A DNA stretch of 34,263 bases, from the NCBI GenBank assembly GCA_019114545.1, contig DXFG01000335.1:1-34263 (forward strand). The letters run 5' to 3'. Source of the stretch: Candidatus Blautia pullistercoris (GTDB lineage Bacteria > Bacillota > Clostridia > Lachnospirales > Lachnospiraceae). The translations under genes were made by a program, and so were the position numbers. This document shows, one piece after another, positions 8,024-14,947 of this stretch. Positions within the stretch are counted from its first letter, which is position 1; every line of letters begins with the position of its first letter. Below the pieces are notes generated by a model, which searched no databases, was not told where the DNA came from, and saw nothing but the letters and a program-made list of their open reading frames with translations.

Positions 8024-8920
8024 CTAAATTTCCGCTTTTTTCAGGATTCCCACCCCCATAGGATATGGCCCTGTATGTACCCCTATCGTGGCTCCGATCT
8101 GGATCTGCACCCATTCTTTTACCGGGTATCCTTTTTCCAGCAATCTCTCTTTCAGATACTCTTTAAAGGTCTTATACTCCGGCACATCCAAGCCCACGCC
8201 GGTTACCAGCAGATATTCTTCCAGATTTATTTTCTTCTTCTCCAGATACTCTATAAACATATCCACTACCTTGAGAAGAGATTTTTTTCGCCCTCGGCAC
8301 AGTTCTGTAGGCCCCAATTCCCCGTCATAATACTGGAGAAGAGGTTTGATGTTAAGAACGCTGCCTGCCAGAGAAGCTGCTTTCCCTATCCTTCCTCCGT
8401 GTTCCAGATATTTCAGATCTTTTGTACTAAAGAATATATGGCCGGTATTCCTGATCTTTTCCAGAGCTTTTACCGCCTCTTCCAGAGAAAGCCCCTGATC
8501 CCTGAGTCTCACTGCTTCCTGGACAAAAAGCCCTTGTATGGCTGTGACCAGCTGAGAATCCATTACATAGATTTCAGCCTGAGGATAGTCTTCCATAAGC
8601 TCCTCTTTAGCGTTTATAGCAGACTGCATAGAGCCGCTGAATTTTTTTGTCAGACAGATACACAGCACCGGCATTCCTCTTTTTACCAAAGGCAGAAAGG
8701 CGTCTATGTAATCCTGAACCGACGGCATAGAGGTCTTGGGGTAACACCCCTGATTATCTGCCATCTCCTGGTAGAAATCAGTAACCGCAATATCCTTTCC
8801 CTCTCTCAGATACTTTTCCCCATCAAAGGATACATAAAATGATACAATCGTGATCTGCTCCCGCTCTGTATACTTAGGCGATAAATCGCAGGAGCTGTCA
8901 CTGACAATCCCAAATTTCAT
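8024..8920 (-). CDS. DegV family (fatty-acid binding) protein
   Basis: MKFGIVSDSSCDLSPKYTEREQITIVSFYVSFDGEKYLREGKDIAVTDFYQEMADNQGCYPKTSMPSVQDYIDAF is DegV-like. Confidence 0.93.
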   Translation of the reverse strand: MKFGIVSDSSCDLSPKYTEREQITIVSFYVSFDGEKYLREGKDIAVTDFYQEMADNQGCYPKTSMPSVQDYIDAFLPLVKRGMPVLCICLTKKFSGSMQSAINAKEELMEDYPQAEIYVMDSQLVTAIQGLFVQEAVRLRDQGLSLEEAVKALEKIRNTGHIFFSTKDLKYLEHGGRIGKAASLAGSVLNIKPLLQYYDGELGPTELCRGRKKSLLKVVDMFIEYLEKKKINLEEYLLVTGVGLDVPEYKTFKEYLKERLLEKGYPVKEWVQIQIGATIGVHTGPYPMGVGILKKAEI

Positions 8921-9607: not shown

Positions 9608-9656
9608 AAATGGCACCCTATACCGACTAAGGTTAAGGATGCCATTTCTGTTCGCC

Positions 9657-10730
9657 CTATTGATTAATCTCTACGTCTCCCAGACAGCCTTCTGTTGACT
9701 GTTCCGGAGCTGCCGGTGCCTCTTCTGCCGCAGGCTGATTAATTTCCACATCACCCAGGCAGCCTTCTGTTGACTGTTCCGGTGTCTCTGGTACTGCAGG
9801 TGCTTCTTCTACAGGTGCTTCTACAGGTGCCTCTTCTACTACTGGTGCTTCTTCCACTGCAGGTGTTTCCGGTGCTGAAGAAACATAAGAATTATCTGTA
9901 TAGGAAGATTGGTCTGCTGTCGTATTATTTGCTGCTGCTTCTGCTGCTGCCTGCTCAGAAGCAGCCTGTTTTAATTCTGCCAGTTTCTGTTCTGCATCTG
10001 TTAATTTATTTAAGTTTGTTACTTTTGTTTTCTGTGCGTCAGACAGCGCATCATATGCTGCCCTGGCACTCTGTATGTTGGATTCTGACTCTACAGTCAC
10101 TTCGCCAATGGCATCAATCTGTTTTACTACTGCATCTGCTTTTTCATTGTCCGCTTTTACCATTAATTCCATTTCTTTGGTTGTAACTTCTGTATTTTCA
10201 GAAACGCTGGTATATTTCAGAAAATATACATCATCTTCAAAGCACAGAGAAGCTTCTTCCATATCTTCTATGGCAAAGGAAGAAAACTCAGCAACCGTTT
10301 GATCCTCAAAAGTCACTTGTAAGGTATATGTGAGATTAACAAGTGCATCCGCAAGCTCTGACTCCTGCTCTTCATTATTATTCTCAGCAGTAGCCTCTTC
10401 GTCCTCTAACATATAATAGAAATCAAATTCTTCGTTATTCTCTATTTTCTGTTCTGCCTTCATCATATTTGCAGGGTACTCTGCTTCATCTGAACGTTTT
10501 ACAGACAAACCTGTAATATTTTTTCCTGTTAAATTTGTCATAAGTACATGGCAGGCATCTGCACTTTCGTTACCCACGATCTGAAGTGTTTCTTCTTCTG
10601 ATGCTTCTGTTCCTTCTACTGCCTGGGGCTCCGTTTCAGATACAGCCTTCTCCTCTTTGTTTCCGCAGCCGCTGAAAACAAAGCCTGTACACAATAATAC
10701 AGCAAGTACTTTTGTAAATTGTTTTTTCAT
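9657..10730 (-). CDS. Putative lipoprotein with Pro/Val/Glu-rich linker and duplicated Cys-containing C-terminal tail
   Basis: Lipobox-like MKKQFTKVLAVLLCTGFVFSGCGNKEE; internal AVVKQIDAIGEVTVESESNIQSARAAYDALSDAQKTKVTNLNKLTDAEQKLAEL segment; terminal PEQSTEGCLGDVEINQ present twice. Confidence 0.85.
   Translation of the reverse strand: MKKQFTKVLAVLLCTGFVFSGCGNKEEKAVSETEPQAVEGTEASEEETLQIVGNESADACHVLMTNLTGKNITGLSVKRSDEAEYPANMMKAEQKIENNEEFDFYYMLEDEEATAENNNEEQESELADALVNLTYTLQVTFEDQTVAEFSSFAIEDMEEASLCFEDDVYFLKYTSVSENTEVTTKEMELMVKADNEKADAVVKQIDAIGEVTVESESNIQSARAAYDALSDAQKTKVTNLNKLTDAEQKLAELKQAASEQAAAEAAANNTTADQSSYTDNSYVSSAPETPAVEEAPVVEEAPVEAPVEEAPAVPETPEQSTEGCLGDVEINQPAAEEAPAAPEQSTEGCLGDVEINQ
9660..9782 (-). 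repeat. Two 48-nt direct repeats, 75-nt period, encoding PEQSTEGCLGDVEINQ
   Basis: Copies at 9660-9707 and 9735-9782: identical peptide, six synonymous codon differences. Confidence 0.9.
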
Positions 10731-10744
10731 GTGATTACTCCTTC

Positions 10745-12142
10745 CTATTCTTCTAACGATATATCTTCTGATGCAACAATTGCAGCATTTTCGCCATTTT
10801 TACAAATCACATTAATATGTAAAAAATCAGATGGGAGTTCTGCATAATTCAAATACATGGAATAGCCATTCCCGTTCCCGTCTTCTGTCAATGTATAGAA
10901 GGGCTTATAGGTTTTCATATTCGTCCGATCGGCATCGCTTACACAGACTACAATTTCTGTATCGTCTTCCACCAATTCCTGTTCGATACTTCCGTTAATT
11001 TCCAGATAACCGCCGCTTTTTCTGCATTCGATGGTGGAATTTGTCTGTCTTTCAGCAGCAGCCACATTATCTGTCTCCGGAGCTTCCATAATGGGAATCT
11101 CTGTAGCAAGTGCAGATATATTCCGTTCTACCCTTTCTATAATCACCACATCCGGATGATATTGGATAATATTTCCAAAATTATATGGAACCAATCTGGA
11201 AAAATATGCATTTCCATATTCCTCTGCCAAAAATGGGAGAATACTTTCTCCAAAAGAATCCCGATACATTAATAGGGATCCTTCTTTTTGAGCATTGACC
11301 GTTTCAATCCATGCATCCATATTATCAGTAACATCATTTACATACTGATACTCCCAGTCTTTCTCATAATAAAAATCTTCTTCTTTTTCTGCAGCCAGGG
11401 GATACAAAATCTCATCAATATCACCTACATGATCTGTGCGCACCTCATATGGCACATTTAAATAAGTCTCATGGTCTTTGCCGAGATAATCCAATATCTC
11501 GTTGTATGCCAGGACTGCGCCTTTATTATTCCAGTGGCTGTCTCTCTTGAAATACAAAACTTCCTCTTCATTCTGGAATGCTTCTTTCAGATCAATGAAA
11601 TGAATGTTATTTTGTTCCAGCAGTTTATTTAATCTGTCAAGATTACTATCTGTTCCCGGTTGATAATAATATGGCATATGATCGCCATACAAAGTATTCT
11701 TATTTGGTATCAACGCCAGTAAAAACTGCGAACCATTTTTTTCCATAGACTCCTGTACCAGGGATAAGTTATACACTATATTGTATAATTCCCTGTCAGA
11801 GAGTAAATCTCTTCCTGTATAATCGTTAGCTGTGCCTCCATAATATAGCCAGTCGTCTTCTCCAACGATTACCTGGTCTGTTGTACTGGTATGGAATATT
11901 TTTCCCCATATGGCAGAATTCGCAGTCAGCATCTGCAAACGAAAAGCCATATGTTCTTCAAAATAAGTACCTGCCTCTTCCAGATAGTCTGTATTATAAT
12001 TTCCATCTTCTATCAACTGCGGCCATCGGCTCATTTCTTTATTCTCTGTTGTCTCTGTAGTCATCCAAAAGCTCATCCCAACAAAGGGAACCATCAAAGC
12101 TATGATAATTAATGCAATATATGCTATATAACCTTTCTTCAT
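10745..12142 (-). CDS. DHHW/AlgX-AlgJ-like SGNH-type protein, putative extracytoplasmic O-acetyltransferase partner
   Basis: N-terminal TM anchor; VIVGEDDWLYYGG, YFKRDSHWNNKGAVLAYNEIL (D-H-W motif) and LLMYRDSFGESILPFLAEEY (Ser motif). Start MKKGYIAYIALI at 12142 has a GAGGTG RBS. Confidence 0.88.
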   Translation of the reverse strand: MKKGYIAYIALIIIALMVPFVGMSFWMTTETTENKEMSRWPQLIEDGNYNTDYLEEAGTYFEEHMAFRLQMLTANSAIWGKIFHTSTTDQVIVGEDDWLYYGGTANDYTGRDLLSDRELYNIVYNLSLVQESMEKNGSQFLLALIPNKNTLYGDHMPYYYQPGTDSNLDRLNKLLEQNNIHFIDLKEAFQNEEEVLYFKRDSHWNNKGAVLAYNEILDYLGKDHETYLNVPYEVRTDHVGDIDEILYPLAAEKEEDFYYEKDWEYQYVNDVTDNMDAWIETVNAQKEGSLLMYRDSFGESILPFLAEEYGNAYFSRLVPYNFGNIIQYHPDVVIIERVERNISALATEIPIMEAPETDNVAAAERQTNSTIECRKSGGYLEINGSIEQELVEDDTEIVVCVSDADRTNMKTYKPFYTLTEDGNGNGYSMYLNYAELPSDFLHINVICKNGENAAIVASEDISLEE

Positions 12143-12183
12143 GTAACACCTCTTTCGCATCAGCCATATAAATCTTTCTTTCA

Positions 12184-13590
12184 TTAAAACCTAAAATAAA
12201 TAAATGGATTATATGTACCGCTGGCAAGAGACAACATACATAAGAACAATAGTATCACAGTAAAAACATAACTTGCCGGCTGAAGAATGATTCCTATTGA
12301 CGGTTTTCTGGTCCAACACTTCTGTACCTTTTCTACCCACGGGGTACTTCCGGCAACAGCAATTATAAACATAAAAATAAACATCGGGGTCAGCTGTTCC
12401 AGTGTAAGTATCATTTTCGCAGAAGAAAAGTCCCAGCCCCAGAACATCTGTCCGATAATCTGCAATCCCTGAGTTATGGTTTCCGCACGGAATATCACAA
12501 ATCCTATACACACTACCAGAAGGGTATAAACATGCCTGAGAACCTGGGGTAATTTCTTTAAAGGCAGAATCATTTCAAAAAGCAAAAACAACCCATGGAA
12601 AAGTCCCCATATCACAAAGGTCCAGCTTGCCCCATGCCATAACCCTGTACAGAAAAACACGATAATTTTATTCATACAGGTTCGAAACATTCCCTTGCGG
12701 TTTCCGCCCAGGGGAATATACAAGTATTCCTTAAACCATGAGGACAAAGAAATATGCCATCTGCGCCAGAATTCCGTCACGCTGGCAGATATGTATGGAT
12801 AGTTGAAGTTTTCCTGAAAATGGAATCCAAACATATGGCCCAACCCTATAGCCATATCACTATATCCGCTGAAGTCATAATAAATCTGCAGCATATATGC
12901 ACCGGCACCGATCCAGGCACTGCATATATTCAATTCTGCTGGTGCTGCGTTAAATACAGCATCAGCAGTTAAGGCCATAACGTTTGAAATTAAGACTTTT
13001 TTCCCCAGGCCTATAATAAATCTATGCAATCCTTTTGCCACTTCTGTATATTCCATTTTTCTTGTGTCAATTTGCTTTTGGATGTCATAATATTTTACAA
13101 TAGGACCTGCAATTAATTGCGGGAAAAAAGAAATGTATAAAACTACATTCAAATATTTTTTCTGAGGCTCCACTTCTCTGCGATATACATCAATTACATA
13201 GGACATCGCCTGGAATGTATAAAAGGAAATACCTATAGGTAAAATAATCCCCGACTTTGGGACCGAGCTGTGGAAGATCCAGTTTCCTGTACTGATCACC
13301 ATATCGGTATATTTAAAAATCCCCAGAAATACAAGATTACATATCACAGCTGCTGCAAGCACACGTTTTCTGAATTTCTCCTGATCCCTGTCCATCAGCT
13401 TTCCAAACAGAAAATTCAGCCATGTACTTGCGAGCAGCAGCAGCACATAAACCGGTTCCCCGTATGCGTAAAACAGCACACTGGCAAAAACCAGAAAAAC
13501 GTTTTTAATTTTAATAGACGGTAAAATGCAGTATGTAAGAAAAACAATCGGTAAAAACACGCATAAAAACGTCATTGAGCTGAAAACCAT
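12184..13590 (-). CDS. MBOAT-family membrane-bound O-acyltransferase (AlgI-like)
   Basis: MVFSSMTFLCVFLPIVFLTYCILP; FFPQLIAGPIVKYYDI; GYSDMAIGLGHMFGFHFQENFNYPYISASVTEFWRRWHISLSSWFKEYLYIPLGGNRKG; catalytic-His motif TGLWHGASWTFVIWGLFHG. Confidence 0.95.
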   Translation of the reverse strand: MVFSSMTFLCVFLPIVFLTYCILPSIKIKNVFLVFASVLFYAYGEPVYVLLLLASTWLNFLFGKLMDRDQEKFRKRVLAAAVICNLVFLGIFKYTDMVISTGNWIFHSSVPKSGIILPIGISFYTFQAMSYVIDVYRREVEPQKKYLNVVLYISFFPQLIAGPIVKYYDIQKQIDTRKMEYTEVAKGLHRFIIGLGKKVLISNVMALTADAVFNAAPAELNICSAWIGAGAYMLQIYYDFSGYSDMAIGLGHMFGFHFQENFNYPYISASVTEFWRRWHISLSSWFKEYLYIPLGGNRKGMFRTCMNKIIVFFCTGLWHGASWTFVIWGLFHGLFLLFEMILPLKKLPQVLRHVYTLLVVCIGFVIFRAETITQGLQIIGQMFWGWDFSSAKMILTLEQLTPMFIFMFIIAVAGSTPWVEKVQKCWTRKPSIGIILQPASYVFTVILLFLCMLSLASGTYNPFIYFRF

Positions 13591-13603: not shown

Positions 13604-14947
13604 TCAACGAATATAACTCAGCAAAGCATTTCCTTTTGGCATCATATAGAAGTTTAAGTATGGACTGATTTCAGCCTGTCCTTCTGGGTCACAAATATAT
13701 CTTCCGTCAATTTCTACCCATCCGTGAGGTGTATATCCTCCGCCTCGTCTCGTCACCTGACCTTCTACATATTCCGCATCATATCCCAGGTATTTTGCAA
13801 GATAATAAAATGCACCTGCATAACTGTAGCAATTGCCTCTATGATTCTGGAATGCCATCATTGAATACCACTGGCATCTTGTATAACCGTCTGGCGGTGT
13901 TATGTGCCCATTATGGCGCTCATAAGACATATTATTTACTACCCAGTTAAAGCAGGCTCTCAAATCTCTTCCTACTTCGGAGTAAACTTGTTCTGTGTAT
14001 TCACGAAGCTTAGCCTCTTCCGGATCAGATTCAGACCAATTCACCTTACCGTTTACTATATAATGAGAACCATTGGCATCTTCCATTAATCCGGTATAAC
14101 CGCTGTTAAGTCCTCCGTTTTGAATATACCATTGGCCATCTTCTTTCTCAGCCAAGCCTGTATAGTTCCAATCCAGAGCTCCGTTTTGAACGTACCACCA
14201 GCCGCTTTCATTTTCTACTAAGCCTGTATAGTTCCAGTCCAATGCGCCCTGATTAATATACCACCAGCCATTCTCATTCTGGGCCAAGCCTGTATAGTTC
14301 CAATCCAGGGCTCCATTATTGATATACCACCAGCCGTACTCATTCTGGGCTACTCCTGTGTAATCCCAGTTCAACCAGCCATTGTTGATATACCACCAGC
14401 CATACTCGTTCTGGGCTACTCCCGTATAATCCCAATTCAGCCAGCCATCGTTAATATACCACCAGCCGTTCTCGTTCTGGGCCACTCCCGTATAAGTCCA
14501 GTCCAATGCGCCGTGATTAACATACCACCAGCCATTCTCGTTCTGGACCACTCCCGTATAATTCCAGTCTAACGCACCACAATTAATATACCACCAGCCG
14601 TTTTCATTCTCTACCAAACCTGTATAGGTCCAGTCCACCGCTCCGTGGTTAATATACCACCAGCCATTTTCATTCTCTGCCAAGCCTGTATAATCCCAGT
14701 CTAAATAACCATCTCGGATATACCACCAGCCATTTTCATTCTGGGCTACTCCCGTATAGCTGGTATTTACCTGGTCGCCATTTTTCACACACCAGTTGCC
14801 GCTGGCATCATCCCAAACCACAACATTCGGATTTTCAGATGATTCTGTGCCTTCCGCTCTTACCTCATCGGCACAGCACCATATGATGCCGATGGATGCT
14901 GCAAGAGTACTGCAGATCATAAAGTTCTTCATCATGTTTTTTTTCAT
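13604..14947 (-). CDS. Secreted transglutaminase-like (Cys-His-Asp) protein with tandem GWWY cell-surface repeats
   Basis: Signal peptide-like N-terminus; eleven repeats of YTG(L/V)(A/V)(Q/E)NENGWWYINxGxLDW(N/T/D); C-terminal HRGNCYSYAGAFYYLAKYLGYDAEYVEG...YTPHGWVEIDGRYICDPE with Cys/His/Asp triad spacing. Confidence 0.9.
   Translation of the reverse strand: MKKNMMKNFMICSTLAASIGIIWCCADEVRAEGTESSENPNVVVWDDASGNWCVKNGDQVNTSYTGVAQNENGWWYIRDGYLDWDYTGLAENENGWWYINHGAVDWTYTGLVENENGWWYINCGALDWNYTGVVQNENGWWYVNHGALDWTYTGVAQNENGWWYINDGWLNWDYTGVAQNEYGWWYINNGWLNWDYTGVAQNEYGWWYINNGALDWNYTGLAQNENGWWYINQGALDWNYTGLVENESGWWYVQNGALDWNYTGLAEKEDGQWYIQNGGLNSGYTGLMEDANGSHYIVNGKVNWSESDPEEAKLREYTEQVYSEVGRDLRACFNWVVNNMSYERHNGHITPPDGYTRCQWYSMMAFQNHRGNCYSYAGAFYYLAKYLGYDAEYVEGQVTRRGGGYTPHGWVEIDGRYICDPEGQAEISPYLNFYMMPKGNALLSYIR
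14033..14758 (-). repeat. Eleven 66-bp (22-aa) tandem repeats within the transglutaminase-like gene
   Basis: Consensus YTGVAQNENGWWYINNGALDWN; aa 64-305 of the 447-aa ORF. Confidence 0.9.

Follow-up and report, generated by a model that had tools for sequence, protein, structure and literature searches.

The described systems closest to the locus treated here are those that pair an MBOAT membrane acyltransferase with an SGNH enzyme, among them the Dlt pathway with DltX, PatA/PatB, and PatA1/PatB1 of Bacillus, the last acting on secondary cell wall polysaccharide. In such pairs a C-terminal tyrosine of the MBOAT (in the motif FxYxxF) receives the acyl group from acyl-CoA, and the serine of the SGNH enzyme receives it next (PMC12148441); the DHHW enzyme PatB1 O-acetylates the secondary cell wall polysaccharide (PMC9487903). 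The stretch of Candidatus Blautia pullistercoris DNA given above (contig DXFG01000335.1, 34,263 nucleotides in all, and called the window in what follows) holds a locus built around the same arrangement, with an FxYxxF MBOAT beside an SGNH enzyme, of the DHHW type in the window and DltD-like in some related loci. Unlike those systems, it adds a transglutaminase-fold protein that is probably wall-bound and a lipoprotein, here called LP, that ends in a duplicated, cysteine-bearing tail. The parts are of known kinds; their combination and the invariant cysteine tail appear to be undescribed, and no description of the locus was found in the open-access literature.

The findings suggest that the tail is a chemical handle of a kind not described before, and perhaps an arm on which acyl groups are carried. 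The reading we favour, at well below even confidence, takes the tail as the working end of the lipoprotein in an undescribed cell-envelope acylation locus, where its thiol arm would relay acyl groups from an acyltransferase to the transglutaminase-fold enzyme. The more specific form of this idea, somewhat more tentative again, makes LP a lipid-anchored extracytoplasmic acyl carrier, with its cysteine on a long disordered arm, taking thioester-bound acyl groups from a membrane acyltransferase, whichever of the three classes it belongs to, and passing them to a wall-bound acyltransferase of transglutaminase fold. The parts of LP in the window are as follows.

9657..10730, minus strand: lipoprotein coding sequence (LP), 357 amino acids, recognised by the lipobox FSGC at residues 19-22 and by its homologues
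9660..9707, minus strand: tail copy 2, PEQSTEGCLGDVEINQ, residues 342-357 with Cys349, at the extreme C-terminus (from the sequence)
9735..9782, minus strand: tail copy 1, PEQSTEGCLGDVEINQ, residues 317-332 with Cys324, an invariant column in the alignment of 18 homologues described below
9783..9902, minus strand: disordered Pro/Val/Glu/Ala linker (low pLDDT, no secondary structure; alignments)
9903..10178, minus strand: predicted helical stalk, residues 185-276 (AlphaFold2 model)
10182..10583, minus strand: beta-sandwich core domain, residues 50-183 (pLDDT >90 over most of it; conserved in homologues)
10665..10667, minus strand: lipobox cysteine Cys22, the membrane anchor (from the sequence; invariant in the same alignment)

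A scan of GTDB contigs gave nine loci with LP homologues, and profile searches of 397 family genomes and 391 class genomes gave further ones, so that homologues in 20 loci besides that of the window could be compared; the resulting set holds 21 non-redundant tailed loci, 23 tails were compared, and 18 diverse homologues were aligned. The other tails of the nine-locus set are SQGTGGCLDDVILN, PEQSADNCLDGVVINQ, PEQGSEGCLGGGAAIN, PEQSSEGCLDPGELGL and PAQTTEGCLTEGGGPVFN, and that of Enterococcus sp. BWR-S5 is PDQGTDGCLDL. The cysteine, found in 23/23, is the sole tail residue never missing; a glycine precedes it in 17/23 and Leu, Ile or Val follows it in 21/23, and it lies 3 to 19 residues from the C-terminus. 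Across the wider family what is retained is x-C-[LIV]-[DGN] and no more. The 18-sequence alignment has six invariant columns, the lipobox cysteine, G53, N66, T184, E188 and the tail cysteine; the linker in front of the latter cannot be aligned, the core falls to 23-30% identity, and the cysteine stays constant.

An earlier note on this DNA, made from the letters of the window, had expected a functional tail to resist free variation among orthologues and had stressed the cysteine, and both expectations are borne out by these counts. Its literal motif fared less well, [ED]GCLGD being near-private to two Blautia species among the 397 genomes: a codon search of these for GCLGD[IV]E[IM] returned the window's two copies, one match in a frame encoding no protein, and nothing else. 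The exact motif is thus lineage-specific, and a profile was therefore needed. The glutamines that the note had singled out as flanking the cysteine do not hold up as a feature either, since Gln at -5 occurs in 16/23 tails and in only 1/6 of the loci with an Acyl_transf_3 protein.

Two loci with transglutaminase-fold, MBOAT and DHHW genes (L114 and L115) have a lipoprotein with no core at all, made up of a lipobox, a Glu/Ala/Thr-rich linker and a tail of a second type, YIEDCGEDSGYWEIIYSDGSVEYIDD. A tail resembling it is found on a different lipoprotein in L117, and related tails are found on the usual core in L113 and L070. The minimum shared by all is therefore a lipid anchor, a disordered linker and a terminal cysteine. 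Some tailless homologues (L057, L072, L074, L109) finish instead in a domain of the form GxxMxxLxxAxG...YYYYxxFxVST, and in L109 related domains that bear a cysteine (SCNGPGxD, SCLGPGxD) adjoin transglutaminase-fold genes. In Mediterraneibacter agrestimuris (L026) an in-frame stop at about 8442-8445 splits the lipoprotein gene, and the continuing frame ends in PEQGSEGCLGGGAAIN. Two sets of matches were set aside: the weak class-level profile matches L122-L126 are unrelated, their similarity lying mainly in the signal-peptide region, and the same-genus matches L003-L015 have in common only a widespread surface-protein repeat (ARAAYDALSDAQK...).

The partners of LP in the window lie directly upstream of it on the same strand.

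10745..12184, minus strand: AlgX/DHHW-type SGNH O-acyltransferase (Pfam ALGX 6.5e-22, DHHW 2.9e-8)
12184..13590, minus strand: MBOAT O-acyltransferase with C-terminus NPFIYFRF, an FxYxxF acyl-shuttle motif (Pfam MBOAT 2.8e-30)
13604..14947, minus strand: secreted transglutaminase-fold protein with about 11 choline-binding repeats (Pfam Choline_bind_4, Transglut_core)
13607..14065, minus strand: its transglutaminase-fold catalytic domain, with the Cys-His-Asp triad intact (AlphaFold2 pLDDT 91.5; Foldseek)

All nine loci of the GTDB scan share the gene order transglutaminase-fold protein, MBOAT, DHHW/AlgX enzyme and, fourth, lipoprotein. Counting as neighbours the genes that lie no more than 10 kb from an LP homologue on its own strand, a membrane acyltransferase lies near the lipoprotein in 21/21 non-redundant tailed loci and a transglutaminase-fold gene in 20/21, that of L071 being about 120 kb off on the same contig. 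The earlier note had tied the tail to the transglutaminase-like gene of its operon, and rightly so, though it overlooked the membrane acyltransferase common to every tailed locus. The acyltransferase set itself varies. Most tailed loci have MBOAT and DHHW; L061 has an MBOAT with no DHHW or other SGNH partner gene nearby; L062 and L064 have an MBOAT and a DltD-like protein beside an AMP-ligase and a phosphopantetheine carrier protein, as in Dlt operons; and six loci (L060, L065, L071, L111, L116 and L127, the last by similarity to the others) have a standalone Acyl_transf_3 protein and no MBOAT, its gene overlapping or abutting that of the lipoprotein in 5/6. The window itself has a nearby SGNH partner of the ALGX/DHHW kind, and the FxYxxF motif closes 26/26 MBOATs of the loci. 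The DHHW family is far commoner than the tailed lipoprotein (205/387 genomes), and is therefore not diagnostic of the locus.

Where LP homologues stand in other neighbourhoods (L067, L072-L076) the cysteine tail is absent in 6/6, and the lone mismatch is a tailless LP paralogue inserted beside the tailed one in the Enterococcus locus. Tail and locus go together with Fisher p = 2e-5 in a table whose rows are related by descent, so that the strength of the case lies not in this value but in the invariant cysteine and in the swapping of acyltransferase class, for which the tree (in which many branches are weak) needs at least six switches, the tail and the transglutaminase-fold gene staying in place. 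The sequences themselves show the locus, its invariant cysteine, the intact triad, the shuttle motif and the exchange of acyltransferase class.

The two copies of PEQSTEGCLGDVEINQ in LP stand 75 nucleotides apart and differ at 6 nucleotides in 6/16 codons, every difference synonymous; six random substitutions would all be silent with probability 3.5e-5, or 2.6e-4 if transition bias is allowed for. In the closest relative, Candidatus Blautia stercorigallinarum (L002/L022), both copies are present. Compared with the window its copy 2 has three changes, all synonymous, and its copy 1 differs at 7 nucleotides, including one conservative Glu/Asp change; within genomes, copies 1 and 2 are 6 nucleotides apart in the window and 12 in the relative. 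Because both species carry both copies, and given these distances between and within genomes, the duplication predates the species split, and the explanation of the repeat as a recent copy was rejected. Comparison of the two species gives 9 synonymous changes and 1 replacement for the tail codons, against 7 and 10 for the adjoining upstream linker (Fisher p = 0.018). On this codon evidence the tail peptide is kept by purifying selection since before the split. Recomputation thus upholds both the duplicated 16-residue tail of the earlier note, with its spacing and six silent codon differences, and the constraint at the level of the peptide that the note had read from it. A third genus (L059, genome G122) has three tandem tails, EQSTESCLGGAEQSTEGCLGGAEQSTEGCLGGV, in another frame than the start of the gene; the frame switch falls within the Ala/Gln-rich linker of the lipoprotein gene (about 9794-10800) and may reflect either a fault in the assembly or slippage where the codons are repetitive.

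LP has the signal peptide with lipobox cysteine of a bacterial lipoprotein. AlphaFold2 gives a confident core and stalk and leaves linker and tail disordered, in keeping with the exposed C-terminal tail that had been proposed. The linker differs among species in length and sequence, and the helical stalk is found in the window, L022 and L023, its place being taken elsewhere by an Ala/Gln-rich linker. Pfam and NCBIfam contain no model for the core or the tail, and among PDB folds the core has a single marginal match (2mca, E 1e-3) that indicates no function. The third Foldseek match of the core model is human lysosomal HGSNAT (E 0.03, low TM-score), a membrane acetyltransferase that moves acetyl groups across the membrane; the resemblance is probably due to chance. 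An inverted repeat, AATGGCA...TGCCATT, lies at 9608-9656 between LP and a convergent TetR gene, and is likely to be the terminator for both.

The enzyme of the window matches Transglut_core above the cut-off (Pfam 1e-8), and across 38 aligned domains the triad is kept nearly throughout (Cys 37/38, His 38/38, Asp 38/38). Its N-terminal modules differ from locus to locus: choline-binding repeats in the window, L111 and L117, SLH with GBS_Bsp-like in L025, ricin-type in L030, GBS_Bsp-like in L063, ChW in L064 and L119, and DUF5648 in L065. Since most of these are known or plausible surface binders, the enzyme is probably located on the wall. Its profile finds GdmF and the arylamine N-acetyltransferases as best, though weak, matches among PDB sequences, which we count for an acyl relay because both take acyl groups from thioesters. 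It is no arylamine N-acetyltransferase by family models, Transglut_core scoring better and Acetyltransf_2 matching only in part and in 2/10 scanned. The relatives of the enzyme in sequence and fold fit acyl transfer, cross-linking or proteolysis alike and do not decide between them.

In the acyl relay as we picture it, the MBOAT would draw on acyl-CoA and bring the acyl group through the membrane to its own C-terminal tyrosine (FxYxxF) and from there to the serine of the SGNH (DHHW) enzyme; that these loci share this transfer is drawn by analogy with the described pairs. An Acyl_transf_3 protein could serve as an alternative front end, as could an MBOAT and a DltD-like protein supplied by the AMP-ligase and its carrier protein. 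The thiol of the tail cysteine would then take the acyl group as a thioester, and the disordered linker, lipid-anchored at its far end, would carry it outward into the wall. There the transglutaminase-fold enzyme, held to a wall polymer by its choline-binding, SLH, ChW, GBS_Bsp-like or ricin-type modules, would load the group on its catalytic cysteine and hand it to the acceptor at the end of the chain. A lipoprotein with two or three tails would have as many sites for loading. In L025, L026 and L058 the lipoprotein is followed by large secreted proteins whose C-termini are SLH-like, and polysaccharide export and glycosyltransferase genes lie upstream of the locus in L026 and L058; these neighbours suggest an S-layer-binding wall polysaccharide as the polymer that is acylated. 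L062 also encodes what appears, by eye, to be a PLP (pyridoxal phosphate)-dependent decarboxylase or racemase.

The relay is the simplest of the readings that take in every constant part: the membrane acyltransferase of whatever class, the lipid-anchored thiol arm and the wall-bound thiol enzyme. We count for it the cysteine of 23/23 tails and its invariant alignment column, the acyltransferase of 21/21 loci and the transglutaminase-fold gene of 20/21, the lipoprotein and acyltransferase genes that overlap or abut in 5/6 Acyl_transf_3 loci, the change of acyltransferase class around a constant tail and transglutaminase-fold gene, the missing tail in 6/6 homologues elsewhere and the coreless lipoproteins of L114 and L115. 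The acyl-tyrosine shuttle of MBOATs, the O-acetylation by PatB1 and the carrier cysteine of SoxY are its precedents. Several points weigh against it. To our knowledge MBOAT-SGNH pairs elsewhere function with neither a lipoprotein nor a transglutaminase-fold partner. The nearest folds to the enzyme by Foldseek are transglutaminase-like cysteine proteases, TglA of Streptococcus pyogenes and pseudomurein endoisopeptidases, with the N-acetyltransferases coming next. On the tree just three changes of tail state suffice, each together with the locus, so that independent contrasts are few; the 2-3 independent pairs are all concordant and too few to reach significance. The association of tail and locus is, moreover, a matter of observation, and the acyl loading of the cysteine, with the transfer from it to the transglutaminase-fold enzyme, one that we infer.

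Almost as likely, though still only possible in our estimate, is that the tail serves for anchoring or cross-linking: the wall-bound enzyme would recognise it and form a bond from either the cysteine thiol or the Gln at -5 to some polymer or protein of the wall. The membrane lipoprotein would be fastened to the wall in this way, rather like proteins anchored by sortases or L,D-transpeptidases, and the acyltransferases would merely alter the polymer that the enzyme binds. It is tail and transglutaminase-fold gene that form the constant pair as acyltransferase classes change, the enzyme has wall-binding modules, transglutaminase-like proteases and endoisopeptidases are among its nearest folds, and a lipobox, linker and tail are enough in L114 and L115. 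The Gln is present in 16/23 tails, but it is missing from several others and from most tails of Acyl_transf_3 loci (5/6), and the cysteine never is. Gln not being invariant, Gln-donor chemistry is disfavoured as a rule, which narrows the suggestion of the earlier note that the tail may be a substrate of the operon's transglutaminase-like enzyme. The tight tie to the acyltransferases, including the overlapping genes of the Acyl_transf_3 loci, would also become a side matter if the tail were an anchor. Two known forms of surface chemistry were rejected: PEQSTEGCLGDVEINQ has no LPxTG-like motif, hydrophobic segment or basic C-terminus, as a sortase substrate would, and an internal thioester domain is excluded by the disorder of the tail in the model, outside any folded domain, and by the inconstant Gln.

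Rather unlikely, in our view, is a docking or regulatory tail that attaches to the enzyme either through non-covalent contacts or through a reversible disulfide with the catalytic cysteine, and so recruits or inhibits it near the membrane, LP being an adaptor like AlgF or WssG of alginate and cellulose acetylation. Accessory proteins do exist in related acetylation systems, the partner has a catalytic cysteine, and a short conserved peptide with a hydrophobic end segment on a disordered linker would suit the purpose; a docking motif, however, need not hold one cysteine fixed as all its neighbours vary, and disulfides are uncommon in strict anaerobes. We think it very improbable that the enzyme or another protease cuts the tail and releases a cysteine peptide that serves as a signal or in maturation: the nearest structures do include transglutaminase-fold proteases, and the tail lies at the extreme C-terminus in two or three copies, but the residues after the cysteine are variable in sequence and number anywhere from 3 to 19, and the neighbourhoods of the loci show no recurrent receptor or transporter. 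Least probable of all is a lineage artefact, in which a single operon family has simply conserved its C-terminus and the tail does nothing chemically special. The few independent gains and losses on the tree might speak for this, but the cysteine is unchanging in proteins whose linkers cannot be aligned and whose cores share 23-30% identity, and coreless lipoproteins with a cysteine tail fill the same position in the locus.

The locus points to an undescribed way of modifying the Gram-positive envelope in gut Lachnospiraceae and Enterococcus. If LP is an acyl carrier, it would show how acyl chemistry gets to wall polymers past the membrane surface, as a long-distance equivalent of the tyrosine shuttle of DltX; if its tail is an anchor, it would represent an unknown way to tie lipoproteins to the wall.

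With the Dlt pathway, L062 and L064 share the AMP-ligase and carrier protein, and the proposed carrier is in both cases a C-terminal extracytoplasmic peptide; what sets the locus apart from MBOAT-SGNH systems in general is also that the pair of lipoprotein and enzyme is found with Acyl_transf_3 replacing the MBOAT. The enzyme resembles the arylamine N-acetyltransferases and GdmF in its transglutaminase-like fold, its Cys-His-Asp triad and a sequence similarity that is weak yet the best in the PDB, but those are cytoplasmic and use CoA or carrier-protein thioesters, whereas the enzyme of the locus is secreted and has wall-binding modules. Its nearest solved folds are S. pyogenes TglA (9crn) and bacterial transglutaminase-like proteases (3isr), at about 18% identity, for which we know of no cysteine-tailed lipoprotein partner. 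Like the streptococcal thioester domains and the proteins anchored by sortase or L,D-transpeptidase, LP would involve Cys/Gln chemistry or enzymatic anchoring at the end of a surface protein; unlike thioester domains and sortase substrates, its tail is disordered and has neither the thioester-domain fold nor LPxTG. The nearest parallel to the tail itself is SoxY of SoxYZ, which is extracytoplasmic and acts as a carrier through a single cysteine near its C-terminus, on a Gly-rich arm that bears an intermediate (PMC6067878). SoxY differs in carrying sulfur and in not being a lipoprotein with a long disordered linker, and homology between the two is undetectable, the Foldseek match not being significant.
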